Below, piece after piece: positions 43,321 to 51,854 of a stretch of DNA of 64,000 nt. A model generated the notes under the pieces. The model worked only from the letters and a program-made list of their open reading frames with translations. It was not told where the DNA came from and made no database searches. Source of the DNA: Polyangiaceae bacterium (lineage in GTDB: Bacteria > Myxococcota_A > Polyangia > Polyangiales > Polyangiaceae). The translations under genes and the position numbers were made by a program. Every line of letters begins with the position of its first letter. Position 1 is the stretch's first letter. The DNA lies in contig JAHBVX010000010.1 of assembly GCA_019637295.1 (NCBI GenBank), positions 62,001-126,000 of the forward strand. Reading direction: 5' to 3'.

Positions 43321-44877
43321 ATGGCCTTCCCGCTCGAGCTCGCCGTCCGGTACATGCGCTCGAAGAAGAGCGGGTTCGTCTCGGTTGGGACGGCGTTCGC
43401 CGTCATTGGCGTGGCCCTCGGGGTCGCGGCCCTGGCCACCGTGATCAGCGTCACGGGCGGCTTTCGGGCGGAGTTTCGCGAGAAGGTCCTGGGCGTCAAC
43501 GCCCACGTGTTGATCCTCAAGTATTCGAGCGACTTTCGCGAGTACCGCACGGTGATGGAGCAGATGGAGTCGGTGCCCGGCGTGGTCGGCATCGCTCCCT
43601 TCGTGATCGACCCCATGATGGTCACCCACGGCGGCAAGACGGCCACGGGCGTGCTCCTCAAGGGGGTGGATCCCGAGTTGATGCCCAAGGTGTTGGATCT
43701 GCCCCGCCATATCGTGGAGGGCGATCTCAAGGGGCTGCGGCTCGCTTCGGCCAAGCCGCCGGAGCGCCGGCGTCGCTCCGTGCTCGACGATCTGCCGGAC
43801 GAGGTCCCGCTGCCGCCGGTCACGAGCGCGGAGCCGGGCGTCAAGGCGCCGCTGCTCGAGCAGATTCAGAAATCCATCGACGAAGCCGAGGCCGCCTCCG
43901 ACGCGGGGACGCCGCCTCCCGAGGCCCCGGTCGCGGCGCCTCCGCTCGACCCGGACGCGCCCTTCGGCAACGTCGAACCCGATGGCGGCTACCAGAGTGA
44001 CCTCCCGGACGAGGATCTGCTCCCCGCAGACGTGGATCCGGATCCCTGCGCGAGCCCGGAGGCGGTCAAGCTGCTGCCGGGGATCATCGTGGGCAAGACG
44101 CTGAAAGAGAACCTCGGGCTCGAGCTCGGCTCTTGCTTGCAGGTGACCAGCCCGACCATCGGCTACGTCTACTCCAAAGGCGCGATCCGCGCGCCCGTCG
44201 CCAAGCAGTTTCGGGTGATCGCCGTGTTCGACGCCGGGTTCGATCAGTACGACTCGAAGCTCGTCTACACGGATCTGTTCGAAGCGCAGGCGTTCGGGGA
44301 CTCGGGCGACAGCGTCACCGGCATCGAGATGAAGGTGGCCAACATCGACGACGCGCGCGCCATCACCCGCTTGGTGGACGAGCAGCTGGCGGACGGCATC
44401 TATCACACCATGGACTGGGAGGAGCTGAACCACGGCCTCTTCACCGCCCTGCGCATCCAGCAAATCCTGATGAGCCTGGTCCTCGCCCTCATCATCGTGG
44501 TGGCTGCGTTTACCGTGATCGCGACGCTGATCATGGTCGTGCTCGACAAGAAGAAGGAGATCGCCGTGCTCAAGGCGATGGGAGCGACCAATAGCGCCCT
44601 ATTGAGGTCGTTCCTGTATCAGGGCGGGATCATCGGGCTGGCTGGTACGGCCATCGGGCTGGGGCTGGGCGTGTTGGTTTGTCGTGGCCTCTTGGTCTAC
44701 AGCTTCCCGCTCGATCCAAAGGTGTACTTCATCAGCAAGCTGCCGGTGCAGGTACACCCACACGAGTTCGTGATGGTTGGGCTGTTCGCGGTGCTGGTGT
44801 GCTTGATGGCCACTGTCTGGCCCGCGATGTACGCGGCGCGGCTCAGGCCTGCGGAAGCGTTTCGCGAGCAGCAGTGA
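43321..44877 (+). CDS. LolC/E-like FtsX-family permease with extended periplasmic insert
   Basis: This 518-aa protein has one N-terminal helix (about 23-45) followed by a periplasmic domain, then three helices near residues 382-408, 435-460 and 480-505. The N-terminus (ELAVRYMRSKKSGFVSV) matches LolC/LolE permeases that extract lipoproteins from the inner membrane for transfer to the outer membrane. The periplasmic domain is interrupted at about 145-250 by a Pro/Glu/Asp-rich insert (PPERRRRSV ... DAGTPPPEAPVAAPPLDP), making the protein about 100 aa longer than LolC/E. No LolD ATPase gene is adjacent; the permease would need one from elsewhere. Its last 35 bp overlap the convergent response regulator gene. 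Confidence 0.85.
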   Translation: MAFPLELAVRYMRSKKSGFVSVGTAFAVIGVALGVAALATVISVTGGFRAEFREKVLGVNAHVLILKYSSDFREYRTVMEQMESVPGVVGIAPFVIDPMMVTHGGKTATGVLLKGVDPELMPKVLDLPRHIVEGDLKGLRLASAKPPERRRRSVLDDLPDEVPLPPVTSAEPGVKAPLLEQIQKSIDEAEAASDAGTPPPEAPVAAPPLDPDAPFGNVEPDGGYQSDLPDEDLLPADVDPDPCASPEAVKLLPGIIVGKTLKENLGLELGSCLQVTSPTIGYVYSKGAIRAPVAKQFRVIAVFDAGFDQYDSKLVYTDLFEAQAFGDSGDSVTGIEMKVANIDDARAITRLVDEQLADGIYHTMDWEELNHGLFTALRIQQILMSLVLALIIVVAAFTVIATLIMVVLDKKKEIAVLKAMGATNSALLRSFLYQGGIIGLAGTAIGLGLGVLVCRGLLVYSFPLDPKVYFISKLPVQVHPHEFVMVGLFAVLVCLMATVWPAMYAARLRPAEAFREQQ

Positions 44878-45562
44878 CCGCCGTGCGGCGCAAGAGCGAC
44901 AGCAGCCGCGCGACCAACTCGGGTGCGCGGAAGGGCTTGCTGACGAAGTCGTCCGCGCCTGCCTCGAACGCCATCACCACGTCGCTGGTCGACGAGTGGC
45001 TGGTGAGGAACAAGATTGGCAGCGTGCGCCATGCCGGGTCGCGACGCAGTCGGCGGCAGAAGTCGAGCCCGTTCATCCCGGGCAGGTTCCAGTCCAAGAT
45101 CACGGCCTGCGTCGGGTTCGCGCGCAGGGTGTCGAAGGCGTCCTCCGCGCTCGACGCGGAGCGCGGCACGAAGCCCTCGCCGCGCAGCAGTTGCTCCAGC
45201 ATCTGCTGAAGCGCCTCGTCGTCGTCCACGATCAGCACGTTCGTGTTCGGCGGGACGCGCACGGCGAACGCGGGTATCCGCACGCTCGGCGGTGGGATGG
45301 TCGGCGGCTCCTGTGAGTTGGCGAACTTCCAGAGTCTGGCCCAGTCGTGGCTCGAGAACACGGCGCGCAGGCCGTCCCCGCGGTCCACGCAGCATCCGGC
45401 GACGGAGGTGGTCTCCTCGCCGACGCTGAAGGTGATCATCACCCACTCGCCGTCGCGCAGCGCGAGCAGGTCGTGTACTTCGATCTCCTGCTCGTCGCTG
45501 CCGGCCTCCAGCACCAACGCGAGCTCCTCGAAGCTATCGAACGAATACAGCACACCGCGCAC
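44843..45562 (-). CDS. Response regulator with N-terminal accessory domain
   Basis: This 239-aa protein has residues 1-95 as a small mixed-strand domain (FDSFEELALVLEAG, EVHDLLALRDGEWVMITFSVGE, GLRAVFSSHDWARLWKFA). It resembles the degenerate PilZ-type domains seen in myxobacterial regulators. After a Pro-rich hinge, residues 108-230 form a receiver domain with NVLIVDDDE, phospho-acceptor Asp in VILDWNLPG, FLTSHSS and Lys in VSKPF. Receiver domains at the C-terminus with the partner domain in front are the reverse of the usual order. It is a single-gene transcript starting at GTG 45562 and overlapping the convergent permease gene by 35 bp. Confidence 0.82.
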   Translation of the reverse strand: MRGVLYSFDSFEELALVLEAGSDEQEIEVHDLLALRDGEWVMITFSVGEETTSVAGCCVDRGDGLRAVFSSHDWARLWKFANSQEPPTIPPPSVRIPAFAVRVPPNTNVLIVDDDEALQQMLEQLLRGEGFVPRSASSAEDAFDTLRANPTQAVILDWNLPGMNGLDFCRRLRRDPAWRTLPILFLTSHSSTSDVVMAFEAGADDFVSKPFRAPELVARLLSLLRRTAVTAARETLPQA

Positions 45563-45642: not shown

Positions 45643-46329
45643 TCACGGGTCGGTGCGCCGGAGCGTCCAGAGCGTGAAGAACAACGCCAGAGCCAGCAAC
45701 ATGAGGGTGGCCCCGAACTGCGGGAGCATGGCGGCAGGGCTGCCGCCGAGCAGGTTGCGGATGTGGGCGCGAGGCCAGGGCAGCGCCAGCGCGCCGGTGC
45801 CGGCGCCCAGGAGCCAGTCGCCCGCGAGCAGGGCGAGTCTGGCGCCGCCGCCGCCGCCGAAGCTGGAACCCAGCGCGAAGAGCAACGAGTAGCACGCGCC
45901 TCCGAGCGCGCCGATCCAGCTGCTCGTGAACAGGTCCCGGGCCAGCTCCGGGTCCGCAGGGAAGCGCGTGACGACGACGGCGACCGCGGCGAGCAGCGCA
46001 CCGAAGGCTGCCGCGATCGCCGTGTTCACCAGCATCAACCCGGTGCCGAGTTGGCGGCGACTGCCGCCATGGCGGGCGTGGACCCAGACCGCGTCGCGCA
46101 GGCTGCGGCTGCCGGTCGTCGCCGTCCACACCCCGTAGGCGAACACCGGCAGTACGATGCCGAGCGCGATGCCGGCCAGCGCGCGGTCCGTCGCGATCAG
46201 CGTGGCGGCACGGCGCTCCAGCAGCGAGCCGAGGAAGACGGCGCACAGCGCGCCCGCGCTCAGCGCCAGGACGCTGCGCGAGTTCATTCGCGCCAGACCC
46301 AGCCGCGCACCGTGGCTCAGTGAACTCAC
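45643..46329 (-). CDS. Membrane subunit of a degenerate ABC-type complex (B)
   Basis: This 228-aa membrane protein has about six hydrophobic helices spread over the length. Examples are VLALSAGALCAVFLGSLL, AGIALGIVLPVFAYGVWTA, TAIAAAFGALLAAVAVVV, LGGACYSLLFALGSS and ATLMLLALALFFTLWTL. The start GTG at 46329 overlaps the stop of the ATPase-like gene upstream (GTGA). Its layout resembles ABC-2 permeases, although it is short. Last gene of a four-gene operon that runs from a TPR lipoprotein through two membrane subunits separated by a catalytically dead ATPase-like protein. No substrate can be inferred. Confidence 0.68.
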   Translation of the reverse strand: MSSLSHGARLGLARMNSRSVLALSAGALCAVFLGSLLERRAATLIATDRALAGIALGIVLPVFAYGVWTATTGSRSLRDAVWVHARHGGSRRQLGTGLMLVNTAIAAAFGALLAAVAVVVTRFPADPELARDLFTSSWIGALGGACYSLLFALGSSFGGGGGARLALLAGDWLLGAGTGALALPWPRAHIRNLLGGSPAAMLPQFGATLMLLALALFFTLWTLRRTDP

Positions 46330-47327
46330 TCGGCCCGCTCCGCTGGTGTCGAGCCGGCGACCGCCGGCGTGGGAGGCTCCGGCGCGGGCACGGGGGCGGG
46401 CGCGGGTCTCGCGGCAGCGTACGCGCGCTCGTAGGCGGCGCGCCACAGGGCGGTGCTCGCCGCGCGGGCCTCGTCCAACGACGCGGGCTCGCTCTCGATG
46501 GAGAGCAGCCCTGCATCGCTGGCCTGCGCTGCGCGCAGCACCGCCATGGACAGCTCGGCGGCTGAAGGCCCGGACACCCGCAGCTGCTGGGGCCGGGCGA
46601 TGGTGTCCAGCGCGAGCCCGCTGACTGCCTCGGCGGTGGTGAGCTCACGCGCTAGCCGCTCGGGGTGCGTCGCCCGCACCAAGAGCGTAGCCTGCGAGCG
46701 GGGGGCGAGCTCGAGGGGCAAGGGCACGCCAGGTCGTCGCACGAATCGACCTCGATCCAGCAGCACGACGTCGCCGCCCAGCGCCTGCGCGTCGCGCACG
46801 CTGTCGGTGATGCACACCACGGTCGTCGTTCGCGCGCGCTCGGTGACCCGGCCCAACACCGCCGCCCGGTCGAGTCGAGCGATGGACGCCAGGGGTTCGT
46901 ACAGTACGAGGGCCTCAGGCTCGGGCAGCGCAAGCGCGAGCTCGAGCGCGACGGCGCGGCGCTCGGATGCGCGGGCGCCCAGCCCGCGTCCCGTGCGGAG
47001 TCGCTCGCGGGTTTGGGCGAGGCTCTGGGCCGAAAGCCCGTGGAGGTCTCGCCAGCGGTCGAGCAGATCGACGAGCTTGCCATCCCACGTCGGCTCCTCG
47101 GCGAGCAGCGACCCGATGCGCGCGCGCACCGCCGGGGAGTCGAACGGGGAGCGGCCGCGGAGCGTCACGCTGCCCCGACGCGGACGACTCTCGCCGGCCA
47201 GCAGCGAGGCCAGGGTCGCAGCGCCGTCCGCCGCCGTGCCGAGCACGACGGTGAGGCCGCCGTCGAGCTCCAGGCTCGCGCCCATCAGCGCCGGAGCGAA
47301 CACTCGATCGAGTCGCAGCGCGGTCAT
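46326..47327 (-). CDS. Catalytically degenerate ABC ATPase-like protein (pseudo-ATPase)
   Basis: This 333-aa protein has the overall ABC ATPase layout: N-terminal strands, a P-loop region near 30, Q-loop region near 75, helical domain, D/H-loop region and a C-terminal extension (about 210-333) ending in a Pro-rich tail. Every catalytic motif is replaced. The P-loop reads GTAADGAAT, so the Walker A Lys and Ser/Thr are Ala. The signature segment reads GARASERRA. Walker B reads LVLYEP, with Asp changed to Tyr though Glu is kept, and the switch region reads VCITDS without His. It therefore should not hydrolyse ATP. Coupled both upstream (ATGA at 47324) and downstream (GTGA at 46326) to membrane subunits, so the complex is probably expressed. 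Confidence 0.75.
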   Translation of the reverse strand: MTALRLDRVFAPALMGASLELDGGLTVVLGTAADGAATLASLLAGESRPRRGSVTLRGRSPFDSPAVRARIGSLLAEEPTWDGKLVDLLDRWRDLHGLSAQSLAQTRERLRTGRGLGARASERRAVALELALALPEPEALVLYEPLASIARLDRAAVLGRVTERARTTTVVCITDSVRDAQALGGDVVLLDRGRFVRRPGVPLPLELAPRSQATLLVRATHPERLARELTTAEAVSGLALDTIARPQQLRVSGPSAAELSMAVLRAAQASDAGLLSIESEPASLDEARAASTALWRAAYERAYAAARPAPAPVPAPEPPTPAVAGSTPAERAE

Positions 47328-48016
47328 CCAAGCCGCCTTCCTAGCGCGACAGCGTGCTCCAGTGCGGCCGACAACACCGCAGGGAGGCTGGGGAGCTGGG
47401 GGAACACCTGCGCGAGCAGCGCCGGCAGGAACACGACCGCCATCAGCAGCAGCCGGGGATGAGCGTTACTGAGCGAGCGGGTGAGGGCCACGAGCAACAC
47501 GCTGCTGGCGGCGAGCAGACCCAGGTAGATCGTGCAGCCAGCGCCGATCGCCAGCTGCGCGAGCGCTGCGCGAACCGAGCGGGCGTGGGCGAGGGTCGCC
47601 GCGGTGAGCAGCAGCGCCCACGGCCACAGGGAGAAGAAGACGCGGCGGCCGGTCGCCAGCCAGCGGGCTCGCTCCAGAGCGCGAGCGGAGAACCCGCGCC
47701 AGCGTGCCAGCTGGGCAATCGCATCGTCGTCCGCGGAGGGCGCGCTCGTGGCGCTCAGGATCAGCGCGCCCGCGCCCAGCCAAGAGAGCCAGCCCAGCGT
47801 GCTCCGCAGGGTCGCGTCGGTGGCGGCGAGGTTGTCGCTGCTGGCACCCAGCCCGACGAGCAGCGTGGCACCCAGACCGATGAGCCACACGAGCACCGTC
47901 CCGAGCTGGGCCGTCAGCCGGCCCCTGAGCCGCTGCTCCGCGAGGCCGACGAGCGCGGCGGCGCGGGCCCGCGTGTGCGGGGGAGGGGGTGCAGGTGACG
48001 TGCTGGCGGGAGGCAA
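47324..48016 (-). CDS. Membrane subunit of a degenerate ABC-type complex (A)
   Basis: This protein of about 230 aa has five to six hydrophobic segments (TVLVWLIGLGATLLVGLG, LSWLGAGALILSATSA, FFSLWPWALLLTAATLA, LAIGAGCTIYLGLLAASSVLLVAL, PRLLLMAVVFLPALLAQVF). The start is not firm: the TTG at 48016 is the only in-frame candidate downstream of the TPR gene's stop that keeps all helices; longer versions would run into that gene. The stop overlaps the pseudo-ATPase start (ATGA). The pair of membrane proteins flanking an ATPase-like gene suggests a heterodimeric ABC-2-like core. Confidence 0.6.
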   Translation of the reverse strand: MPPASTSPAPPPPHTRARAAALVGLAEQRLRGRLTAQLGTVLVWLIGLGATLLVGLGASSDNLAATDATLRSTLGWLSWLGAGALILSATSAPSADDDAIAQLARWRGFSARALERARWLATGRRVFFSLWPWALLLTAATLAHARSVRAALAQLAIGAGCTIYLGLLAASSVLLVALTRSLSNAHPRLLLMAVVFLPALLAQVFPQLPSLPAVLSAALEHAVALGRRLG

Positions 48017-48047: not shown

Positions 48048-48887
48048 CTAGTCCTGGGTGAGCTGTCGGAGCACCTGGCGCGCGACCAGGTCCGACGGAT
48101 CGAGCGAGAGCGCGCGCTCTGCCGCACGCATCGCTGCGTTAGGCTGGCCGCGGGTCAGCTCCGCGACGGCGACCCAACCGAGCGCGCTCACGGCGAGCTC
48201 GTCTTGCGCCTCGGTCAGGGGCCTCAGCAGCGCGATGGCACGGGTGGGCATGCCCCGGCGCAGCTCGGCGCGCGCCTCGAGCACGATGAGTGTCGGCTCG
48301 TCCGGGAAGGTGGCGCGCGCCTGGCTGACCACGTCGTTCGCTTCGTCGTGTCGACCGAGCTTTAAGAGCGCCTCGGCCAGGCCAGCGTGGGCGGCGGGTT
48401 GTTCCGGAGCCACCTCCACCGCCCGCTTGAACTGCTCGCGCGCGTGCCGATACAGGCCCGCGTCGAAGTACAGGCGCGCGAGGTTCAGGCGGGCGGGGGC
48501 GAAGCCCGGGTCGATGGACAGCGCCTCCATGTAGTGCTTGCTGGCGCGGTCGACTCGCCCCTCGCGCTCCTCGAGGACGCCGAAGCCATGGTGGGGCTGC
48601 GCGACGTCGGGGTTGAGGCGCCTGGCTCGCGCGAGCAGGCGCCGTGCGCGCTTGAAGTTCCCGCGCTGCACCTCCACCAAGGCACGGTTGACCACGGCCT
48701 CGACGAAGCGAGGGTTGTACTCGAGCGCTAGGTCGAAGCGGGCCTCTGCGGTCTCCAGATCGCCGGCGGCGAGGGCCTCGGTGCCTTGGTTGTTCAGGTC
48801 GATGGCCTTGGGAGGCAGGGGCGCGGCGCCTTTGCAGCCGACCGCCAGCACGACCAGGGCGAGGAGCGTCGGGACCCGTGACCACAT
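48048..48887 (-). CDS. TPR lipoprotein
   Basis: This 279-aa lipoprotein has ATG at 48887 and lipobox A-V-G-C at Cys18 followed by a short tether. The mature protein is a string of about six TPR units (NNQGTEALAAGDLETAEARF, NRALVEVQRGNFKRARRLLARA, GFGVLEEREGRVDRASKHYMEA and others). PilF/PilW-like and outer-membrane assembly lipoproteins share this plan, but there is no pilus gene nearby. The gene leads the operon with the two membrane subunits and the pseudo-ATPase, so it may be the periplasmic partner of that complex. On the other strand, the acidic-repeat gene begins at 49007. Confidence 0.78.
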   Translation of the reverse strand: MWSRVPTLLALVVLAVGCKGAAPLPPKAIDLNNQGTEALAAGDLETAEARFDLALEYNPRFVEAVVNRALVEVQRGNFKRARRLLARARRLNPDVAQPHHGFGVLEEREGRVDRASKHYMEALSIDPGFAPARLNLARLYFDAGLYRHAREQFKRAVEVAPEQPAAHAGLAEALLKLGRHDEANDVVSQARATFPDEPTLIVLEARAELRRGMPTRAIALLRPLTEAQDELAVSALGWVAVAELTRGQPNAAMRAAERALSLDPSDLVARQVLRQLTQD

Positions 48888-49006
48888 GGGGGCCTGGTCG
48901 GCCCGAACGGCGCCCAGTTGCGTGGCTGCTAGAGAAATCTCCCAATTTCGTCGGATCGTGCGCTCGAGTGTTGCGAATTGGCCGGCTTCTGAGGATGCTC
49001 CCGCGC

Positions 49007-49900
<894 letters not shown>

Positions 49901-49918: not shown

Positions 49919-50470
49919 TCAGCGCTTGGCGGCGCCCAGCTCTGCGAGCCACGCCTCGAGCGTGGACGCGCGCGGGACACCGCTTTCGACACGACGCACC
50001 TGGCCCTCCGCGTCGATCAACACGAAGGTCGGCAGCAGGTTGATGCCGTAGGCCGAGGCCACCGAGCCGTCGTCGAACAGTACGGTGTAGGGGATGTCCC
50101 AGGAGCGCTTGACGTTCGCCGCCGTCTCGGCGCTCTGATCGACGCTGATGCCCACGAAGCGCACGGGCGTCTCGCGCTCGGCGCGCGAGGCTTCGGCGAG
50201 CATCGGCGCTGCCTGGCGGCACGCCGAGCACCAACTCGCGAAGACCTCGACCAGCACCGGGCTACCGCGCAGCCCCGACAAGCGCACTCGTCCGCCCTCG
50301 CCGCCCACGGCGGGCAGATCGAACTCCCTGGCGGCGCTGCCGACGGGGGGCCCCGATGGCTTGCGCGAGACGAGCATCGCGACCCCGAGCAGCGCGATCA
50401 CCACGAGCACCCAGAACAGACCGCTCCGGCCCTCGCGTCGTGCACCGGGGGACTGTGCACGCGCGTTCAT
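49919..50470 (-). CDS. Thioredoxin-like (TlpA/ResA-type) protein
   Basis: This 183-aa protein has one N-terminal membrane helix (about residues 17-37, SGLFWVLVVIALLGVAMLVS) and a periplasmic thioredoxin fold (about 50-180). The active site is WCSACR in VFASWCSACRQAAP and the cis-Pro lies in LLPTFVLID. This layout is that of TlpA/ResA-like thiol-disulphide oxidoreductases, which reduce or exchange disulphides in periplasmic proteins such as cytochrome c precursors. Start ATG at 50470 overlaps the NrsF-like gene stop (ATGA). It belongs to the ECF-sigma operon starting at 51719, so thiol stress may be the signal. Confidence 0.9.
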   Translation of the reverse strand: MNARAQSPGARREGRSGLFWVLVVIALLGVAMLVSRKPSGPPVGSAAREFDLPAVGGEGGRVRLSGLRGSPVLVEVFASWCSACRQAAPMLAEASRAERETPVRFVGISVDQSAETAANVKRSWDIPYTVLFDDGSVASAYGINLLPTFVLIDAEGQVRRVESGVPRASTLEAWLAELGAAKR

Positions 50471-51171
50471 GGAGCGAGCACCCTGCGCCCGAGCAGCCAG
50501 CCCGCGAGTGCGAGCACGGCCACCGTGGCGCCGTGTCCGATCCACAAGTGCCAGGTCTCGCCGGCCGGGCAAGCGATGCCGATGGCGGTCGCGCCGGTCA
50601 GGCCGCCCACGAGGCCGACCAGGCTCCCCGACAGAGCGGGTGAAAAGGGATCCGTGCGCCGCCAGATGAACAGCGTCCCGGCGGCGGCGATGGCGCCGAA
50701 CAGCAGCGCGTGCAGACCGCAGCCGAGGGCGCCCCCCGCGTGGTCGCCACGGAAGAACTCCCCCAGCGGCAAGCGGGAGCTCGCCGCCAGGGTCAAGTAG
50801 CCGATGAACGCCAGCGGCACGCCCAGCGCGACAGCGAGCCAGAGCCCGCCCGCCGCTCGCCGCCCCGGTCGCGCGAGAGCCAACCCGACGACTGCGGTTT
50901 GCACGACGCCCCAGCCCGCCGCACCGAAGAAGGCCGTGTGCCCTGCGCTCGAGGGACGCTCCTTGCCGAGCGCGATCAGCGCGAGCACGACCACGACTCC
51001 GGCGGCGAGCGCCAGGGTGAGGGCGACCCGCGCGCCGACCGAGGGTCCGCGTCGCGGCGACAGCTCGCTCGCGCACGCGCGCCGGATCTCGCCGCGTAGC
51101 TCGGGGCGTGGCTCGGGCAGCTCGGGCCAGGCGAGGTCGGGCAGGGCTTCTTCGGCGCTGGGCTCGGTCAT
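50467..51171 (-). CDS. NrsF-like membrane anti-sigma factor
   Basis: This 234-aa protein has an acidic N-terminal cytoplasmic segment (1-45), then six transmembrane helices: near 46-69, 78-100, 107-130, 147-169, 178-198 and 207-228. The layout and length match NrsF-type (DUF1109-like) anti-sigma factors that hold ECF sigma factors at the inner membrane. It follows the ECF sigma gene after 2 bp and overlaps the thioredoxin gene by ATGA. Two Cys near the middle of the helical part (GCGLH, ACPAGE) could sense redox state, but this is inference. Membrane. Confidence 0.75.
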   Translation of the reverse strand: MTEPSAEEALPDLAWPELPEPRPELRGEIRRACASELSPRRGPSVGARVALTLALAAGVVVVLALIALGKERPSSAGHTAFFGAAGWGVVQTAVVGLALARPGRRAAGGLWLAVALGVPLAFIGYLTLAASSRLPLGEFFRGDHAGGALGCGLHALLFGAIAAAGTLFIWRRTDPFSPALSGSLVGLVGGLTGATAIGIACPAGETWHLWIGHGATVAVLALAGWLLGRRVLAP

Positions 51172-51173
51172 GG

Positions 51174-51719
51174 CTAGCGCTTGAACCTCTCCAGCTCTTG
51201 GCGCAGGAAGTTGTAGCCCCGGTGGACTCGGAGCTTCACCGCGGTGGGTGAGGTCCCGAGCACCTGGGCTGCCTCCGTCATGGATAGGCCGGTCAGCTTC
51301 GTGAGCACGATCGCCTCGCGGTAAGTCTCCGGCATGCGCTCCAGGGCCCGATCGAGCGCTTCGGACACGTCCACCGGGACGTCAGCGTCCTCGCTGTGCG
51401 GCTCGGGTAACGTGCCGTCACGGCTGAGCTCCTCGCTCCTACTCTTGGCCGCGCGCCGCTCGTCGTAGAACGAGCGACGCGCGATCGCGAACACCCAGGG
51501 GAGCACGGGCGCGCCGCGCAGATAGCTGGACCGGGCGCGATAGATCTTGGTGAACGTGATCTGGAGCAGATCTTCGGCGCGCTCCCGGTGGCGGGTCAGC
51601 CGCAGCAGGTAGCCGAACAGCCGAGGGGTCAGCTGGTCGTAGAGCGCGTCGAACGCTCGCGCGTCGCCGTCCACGTAGCGCTCCATCAACCCCTCGAGAG
51701 ACGGCTCGCTCTGCGCCAC
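51174..51719 (-). CDS. ECF-type RNA polymerase sigma factor
   Basis: This 181-aa sigma factor has region 2 at about residues 12-80 (LMERYVDGDARAFDALYD, RLFGYLLRLTRHRERAEDLLQITFTKIY) and region 4 at about 120-178 (LERMPETYREAIVLTKLTGLSMTEAAQVL then TAVKLRVHRGY). GTG 51719 was chosen because it gives the usual short ECF N-terminus; the in-frame GTG at 51806 would add 29 Trp/Leu-rich residues. It should recruit core RNA polymerase to stress promoters and be held by the NrsF-like protein encoded next. No typical ECF -35 motif (AAC) is evident upstream. Confidence 0.9.
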   Translation of the reverse strand: MAQSEPSLEGLMERYVDGDARAFDALYDQLTPRLFGYLLRLTRHRERAEDLLQITFTKIYRARSSYLRGAPVLPWVFAIARRSFYDERRAAKSRSEELSRDGTLPEPHSEDADVPVDVSEALDRALERMPETYREAIVLTKLTGLSMTEAAQVLGTSPTAVKLRVHRGYNFLRQELERFKR

Positions 51720-51854
51720 GCGCGCTACCCTAGACCAGAGCCGCAGGGCGGGGCGAGCGGGGCCCACGAGCCACGCCTCGAGCTGGAACGCAAAGGCTGC
51801 CGACACGCCCTGGCATACGGCGCGCGGCAGCCTCTGGTTTCCCCCCGCGGTCAG

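Follow-up and report, generated by a model that had tools for sequence, protein, structure and literature searches.

Motion driven by ATP is the defining property of ABC transporters, and in the ABC-2-type system NosDFY the subunit NosF is an active ATPase paired with one kind of permease. Degenerate-site exporters carry replacements in their ATP motifs. In Pdr5, one NBD has its Walker A lysine changed to cysteine, its Walker B glutamate to asparagine and its H-loop histidine to tyrosine, and the other NBD has an altered signature (PMC7756269). The locus described here can be set beside both kinds of system. Its ATPase-like subunit, termed the pseudo-NBD, and one of its membrane subunits, MP2, have predicted models like NosF and NosY, respectively (PDB 7o0y, 7o0z); unlike NosDFY, the module has lost the NBD motifs and contains two permease genes. 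No homologue of NosD, NosL or NosZ was noticed next to the module in the window. The replacement of ATP motifs is shared with Pdr5 and other degenerate-site exporters. These exporters have a second working site of their own (PMC7756269), whereas the only NBD of the module is degenerate, though it keeps the glutamate position. We found no earlier description of such a module in the literature searched, which consisted of partial texts, mostly from outside subscription journals.

A three-gene module with overlapping reading frames

The window, by which we mean the whole 64,000-nucleotide stretch of Polyangiaceae DNA that was analysed, carries three minus-strand genes, MP1, the pseudo-NBD and MP2, which span about 45643-48016 and each overlap the next. 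The pseudo-NBD (46326..47327, minus strand) is a protein of 333 residues with a predicted ABC-ATPase fold, degenerate motifs and a C-terminal domain that aligns with that of NosF. Upstream of it lies the first membrane subunit, MP1 (47324..48016, minus strand), for which the TTG start at 48016 is a guess; its reading frame ends in GGA TGA, and the stop shares four bases with the ATG of the pseudo-NBD. The stop of the pseudo-NBD in turn overlaps by four bases the GTG start of MP2 (45643..46329, minus strand), a predicted ABC-2-type permease with a NosY-like fold. An earlier note on this DNA had described the reading frame at 46326-47327, with the motifs GTAADGAAT, GARASERRA, LVLYEP and VCITDS, and the start/stop overlaps on both sides of it, and our reading of the window agrees on both points.

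Distribution and gene order

We searched for the module with an MP2 profile. Among 183 genomes of the order, 88 gave a match, 86 of them in the family of the window, the Polyangiaceae (f1), and two in another family (f8); there was one match per genome except for a weak second match in G133. At least 20 Polyangiaceae genomes had no match, so that the module can be lost, with the proviso that the genome searches score few candidates per genome (15 for MP2 and 11 for the intact-type NBD discussed below) and a missing match does not equal absence. A second collection held ten module loci, all in MAGs, labelled as Polyangiaceae (three), Myxococcales (three), deltaproteobacteria (three) and Proteobacteria (one). 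At the level of the class, 89 of 317 genomes matched, and the sole match outside the order was a doubtful fragment (G310), covering 64 positions with a stop, which was taken as chance. In a sample of the phylum, 37 of 377 genomes matched; six of these (G333, G464, G578, G469, G424 and G474) belong to groups outside the order and matched weakly. The surroundings of four of the six were examined. In G578 and G469 no NBD matched in the stretch around the weak match. In G333 and G464 (loci L177 and L178; family f36), two intact NBDs alternate with permeases and the last permease is weakly MP2-like (15-20 bits).

The gene order is kept. In 82 of the 88 loci, the sequence immediately upstream of MP2 matches the NBD profile, and five of the remaining six are at contig ends. 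The sixth, in G012 (L150), is a frame of 568 residues in which MP2 follows a decayed remnant of the NBD, scoring 20 bits across 82 positions of the profile. In-frame fusions of NBD and MP2 also occur in G024 and G109; the fusion genomes G012, G024 and G109 are drafts (600, 710 and 360 contigs, respectively), in which sequencing errors are possible. Judged by its sequence, the remnant in G012 is a further decay step of the same module, near the limit of profile recognition. A profile of MP1, built from 21 of the 82 loci, confirmed this gene upstream of the NBD in 76 of them. The four-base overlaps also recur, between NBD and MP2 in 62 of 81 loci and between MP1 and NBD in 72 of 76. The three-gene module is genuine and conserved, and is no accident of one genome.

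Ancestry and fold of the pseudo-NBD

A profile search against models of ABC ATPases had been proposed in the earlier note. The single sequence scores 17.2 bits against the ABC ATPase domain PF00005, below the cut-off of 25, and the list of 76 ABC_tran matches in its own genome does not include the gene. In contrast, a profile built from 20 orthologues matches NBDs of known structure at E values as low as 9e-37. The pseudo-NBD and MP2 were modelled separately, since the alignment of a fused NBD-MP2 with unfused rows is out of register. The AlphaFold model of the pseudo-NBD (pLDDT 83.6, from an alignment of nine sequences) superposes on NosF with a Z of 21.1 and an rmsd of 5.2 over 282 residues, the C-terminal part included, and on many other NBDs with Z near 19-21. 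Because of the orthologue profile and the alignment of the model with NosF, we regard the ABC ancestry as real despite the Pfam score below cut-off: on profile and model evidence, the pseudo-NBD descends from ABC NBDs and shares their fold.

Lost motifs and conserved residues of its own

The window pseudo-NBD has no Walker A lysine, LSGGQ signature, Walker B aspartate or switch histidine. To follow these positions through the orthologues, 80 pseudo-NBDs from Polyangiaceae and two from f8 were aligned with six intact NBDs, gaps being left out of the counts. The Walker A lysine is found in none of 78 Polyangiaceae sequences and the switch histidine in none of 79, and the Walker B aspartate and the second glycine of the signature are each present in 10 of 78. 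The degenerate motifs are thus more than chance, as the same losses recur family-wide. It had also been claimed that every catalytic residue was lost, which goes too far: the position of the catalytic glutamate is kept in the window (E144 in LVLYEP), and in the Polyangiaceae it is glutamate in 74 of 78 sequences and aspartate in the other 4. Both f8 pseudo-NBDs are without the Walker B aspartate, the catalytic glutamate and the switch histidine, and in the column of the Walker A lysine one has serine and the other a gap.

The Polyangiaceae pseudo-NBDs also have conserved residues in the altered motifs. Their P-loop follows the pattern LG-T/A-P-x-D-G-T, with G30 conserved in 68, D34 in 63 and G35 in 64 of 78 sequences. 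In the former signature helix E122 (63/78) and R124 (73/78) are conserved, and P145 is kept in 76 of 78. The idea that a salt bridge of D34 with R124 or with E122 stands in for ATP was considered and dropped, the residue counts having no obvious association by eye.

The membrane subunits

Neither MP1 nor MP2 has a convincing match in Pfam; one of 21 MP2 members matches ABC2_membrane_3, at E 0.34. With both permeases in this position and the pseudo-NBD below its own cut-off, annotation easily overlooks such proteins. The AlphaFold model of MP2 (pLDDT 91.4, from an alignment of 11 sequences) superposes on NosY with a Z of 19.2 and an rmsd of 3.0 over 218 of 228 residues, followed by permeases of the ABCG and ABCA types, whose matches cover nearly the whole model. 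The nine best rows of a Foldseek search with this model are likewise all NosY, the best at E 3e-3 and none below 0.001. As modelled, MP2 has the ABC-2 fold. The charged residues D171, R187 and H189 of MP2 were considered as a sign of proton coupling and rejected as unspecific, similar residues being seen by eye in permeases of intact exporters.

A related exporter with an intact NBD

Elsewhere in the order, in families f3, f5 and f9 (loci L181-L186), there is a permease-NBD-permease operon in which the NBD is whole, with the motifs GPNGSGKTT, YSRGM, LLDEPLTGTDP and STH intact in all six loci. This exporter shares its gene order with the module, its NBD is homologous to the pseudo-NBD (hhalign 99.8 % over 280 columns) and its first permease to MP1 (96.5 %, E 8e-10). 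Its second permease reaches 3 % when compared with MP1. It differs in its NBD motifs, which are whole in the exporter and lost in the pseudo-NBD. At an E value of 1e-60 or lower, 33 of the 183 genomes have the intact-type NBD, 32 of them outside f1 and f8; the one in f1, G175, has both the intact-type NBD and the module. The earlier note had held that intact orthologues in the same gene position would refute its reading. None was found within the Polyangiaceae, but a homologous intact exporter with the same gene order does exist in other families.

The occurrence of this related exporter with intact motifs elsewhere in the order makes it probable that the dead motor is the derived state. Descent from this particular exporter is unproven, because MP2 is unmatched (hhalign against the second permease gives a non-significant 0.7 %, and the MP2 profile reaches none of the six loci), the MP1 profile reaches the first permease in only three of the six loci, and a tree of NBDs does not place the exporter NBD as sister of the pseudo-NBDs. 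By sequence comparison, the module and the intact exporter are related, and they are nearly exclusive in their distribution, a pattern confounded by the kinship of the genomes, and their orthology is unproven.

Selection and phylogeny

Substitution rates were compared for 47 pairs from chosen groups in six genera, values for MP1 or MP2 being missing for some pairs. The dN/dS of the pseudo-NBD is below 1 in all 47. In the 15 pairs of the closest genus (g15) it is 0.14-0.26, with 0.12-0.36 for MP2 and 0.12-0.39 for MP1; in the ten pairs of g20 it is 0.30-0.46 for the NBD, and in more distant pairs it rises to as much as 0.95. By these ratios the close pairs are under purifying selection. The family-wide alignment together with the selection in close pairs rules out an isolated decay in one genome. 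The view of the earlier note that the complex is kept, and is not drifting to decay, is supported by the presence of the module in 86 Polyangiaceae genomes, the recurring overlaps and the dN/dS below 1.

The tree was calculated from 68 rows with the motif columns removed, including a chosen 34 of the 82 pseudo-NBDs. All 34 fall on one side of a branch with support of 95/93, recovered in 98 % of bootstrap trees. This grouping fits a single loss before the split of f1 and f8, within the limits set by long branches and skewed composition.

How the complex may work

On balance, the motifs and the models suggest that the complex works without ATP hydrolysis and is probably no ATP-driven pump. MP1 and MP2 would form the permease pair of an ABC-2 (type V exporter-like) complex, on which the pseudo-NBD would dock as the cytoplasmic part, as in NosFY, with ATP-dependent movement no longer driven. 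The ancestor would have been an ATP-driven permease-NBD-permease exporter like that of the other families in the order. Its ATPase activity would have been lost and the NBD retained as a structural or regulatory part, with its docking surface and NosF-like C-terminal domain. Such a complex could be driven by the gradient of its substrate, for example as a gated facilitator or a flippase of lipids; it could also have a role in signalling or serve as a scaffold.

The main rival reading is an asymmetric transporter, in which the pseudo-NBD, as one of the halves, would be paired with an intact NBD from another locus. Two different permeases would permit such asymmetry, the genome of the window has 76 ABC_tran matches, some of them partial, to draw a partner from, and known degenerate-site exporters keep a working second site (PMC7756269). 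We consider this pairing unlikely. A strict pattern for intact NBDs found none beside the module in 88 loci (stretches of 4.2-18 kb), whereas in control searches it recovered the intact exporter at all six of its loci and, within the genome of the window, 22 of 30 ABC_tran loci. A looser scan detected some ABC-class ATPase in 4 of the 88 module loci, without recurrence; from their motifs, we take these to be two UvrA, one ABC-F and one Opp/Dpp-type ATPase. Furthermore, P-loop and signature are both lost, so that each of the composite sites formed with an intact partner would lack a part.

Action by ATP binding had been among the earlier suggestions. It is disfavoured by the motif counts, with the Walker A lysine in 0/78, an aspartate in the P-loop in 63/78 and the switch histidine in 0/79 sequences, even if nucleotide binding through the backbone, without the lysine, is still conceivable for the pseudo-NBD. 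A broader form of the idea is a ligand- or nucleotide-gated complex, in which the altered P-loop binds another ligand, or nucleotide weakly, and binding alone gates the permeases. The replaced P-loop is indeed itself conserved at G30, D34 and G35, and E144 is kept; yet an aspartate in a phosphate-binding loop, the missing lysine and switch histidine and a Walker B aspartate in only 10/78 sequences make this gating improbable, more so than pairing. Least probable by far is pseudogene decay, with the operon on its way out and the overlaps as relics. Fast evolution and long branches, the Polyangiaceae genomes without a match (at least 20) and the rise of dN/dS to as much as 0.95 between distant relatives are what it would explain. 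Against it, the NBD frame is open in 80 Polyangiaceae loci, a few of them cut by contig ends, the dN/dS within g15 is low, and the conserved residues are proper to the pseudo-NBD.

The reading without ATP can be extended to an account of the whole family: an ABC-2 machine whose sole NBD would be a dedicated pseudo-ATPase, arisen by one ancestral loss of the motor, with the P-loop rebuilt as a conserved acidic loop, acting as an ATP-free conduit, flippase or signalling complex, and with the NBD shrunk into a permease domain in G012. To this account as a whole we give about as much credence as doubt. A conserved ABC-2 complex with a sole NBD that probably does not act as a normal ATPase would reveal roles of NBDs besides hydrolysis, namely docking, gating and regulation. 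The NBD occurs in intact, degenerate, fused and shrunken forms, a natural series for testing such roles.

Genes around the module

The TPR lipoprotein gene that the earlier note had placed ahead of the module is present at 48048..48887 (minus strand), and its product has a cysteine after a hydrophobic leader. It is a neighbour only, outside the conserved module, and we rejected it as a subunit: among 20 orthologous loci compared, a TPR gene starts within 2 kb upstream in only three. In the same 20 loci it lies about 4.2-4.3 kb upstream in three, is on the other strand in one and is unmatched in 13, for some of which the stretch is short. Clustering of the genes around the module gave several contexts and no constant neighbour, a weak result in that the codon-composition filter kept a module gene in 53 of 82 loci.

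Three other features of the surroundings may be mentioned. A sigma-70-family (ECF-like) sigma factor and an NrsF-like membrane protein are encoded at 50467-51806 (minus strand), and are also found upstream of the module in 5 of the 20 loci. Between these and the TPR gene, at 48989-49900 (plus strand), is a protein with a long Asp/Glu-repeat stretch and without a Pfam family. Just 3' of MP2, a response regulator whose N-terminal part has no Pfam family is encoded at 44843-45562 (minus strand), and a response regulator occupies the same place in 8 of the 20 loci.
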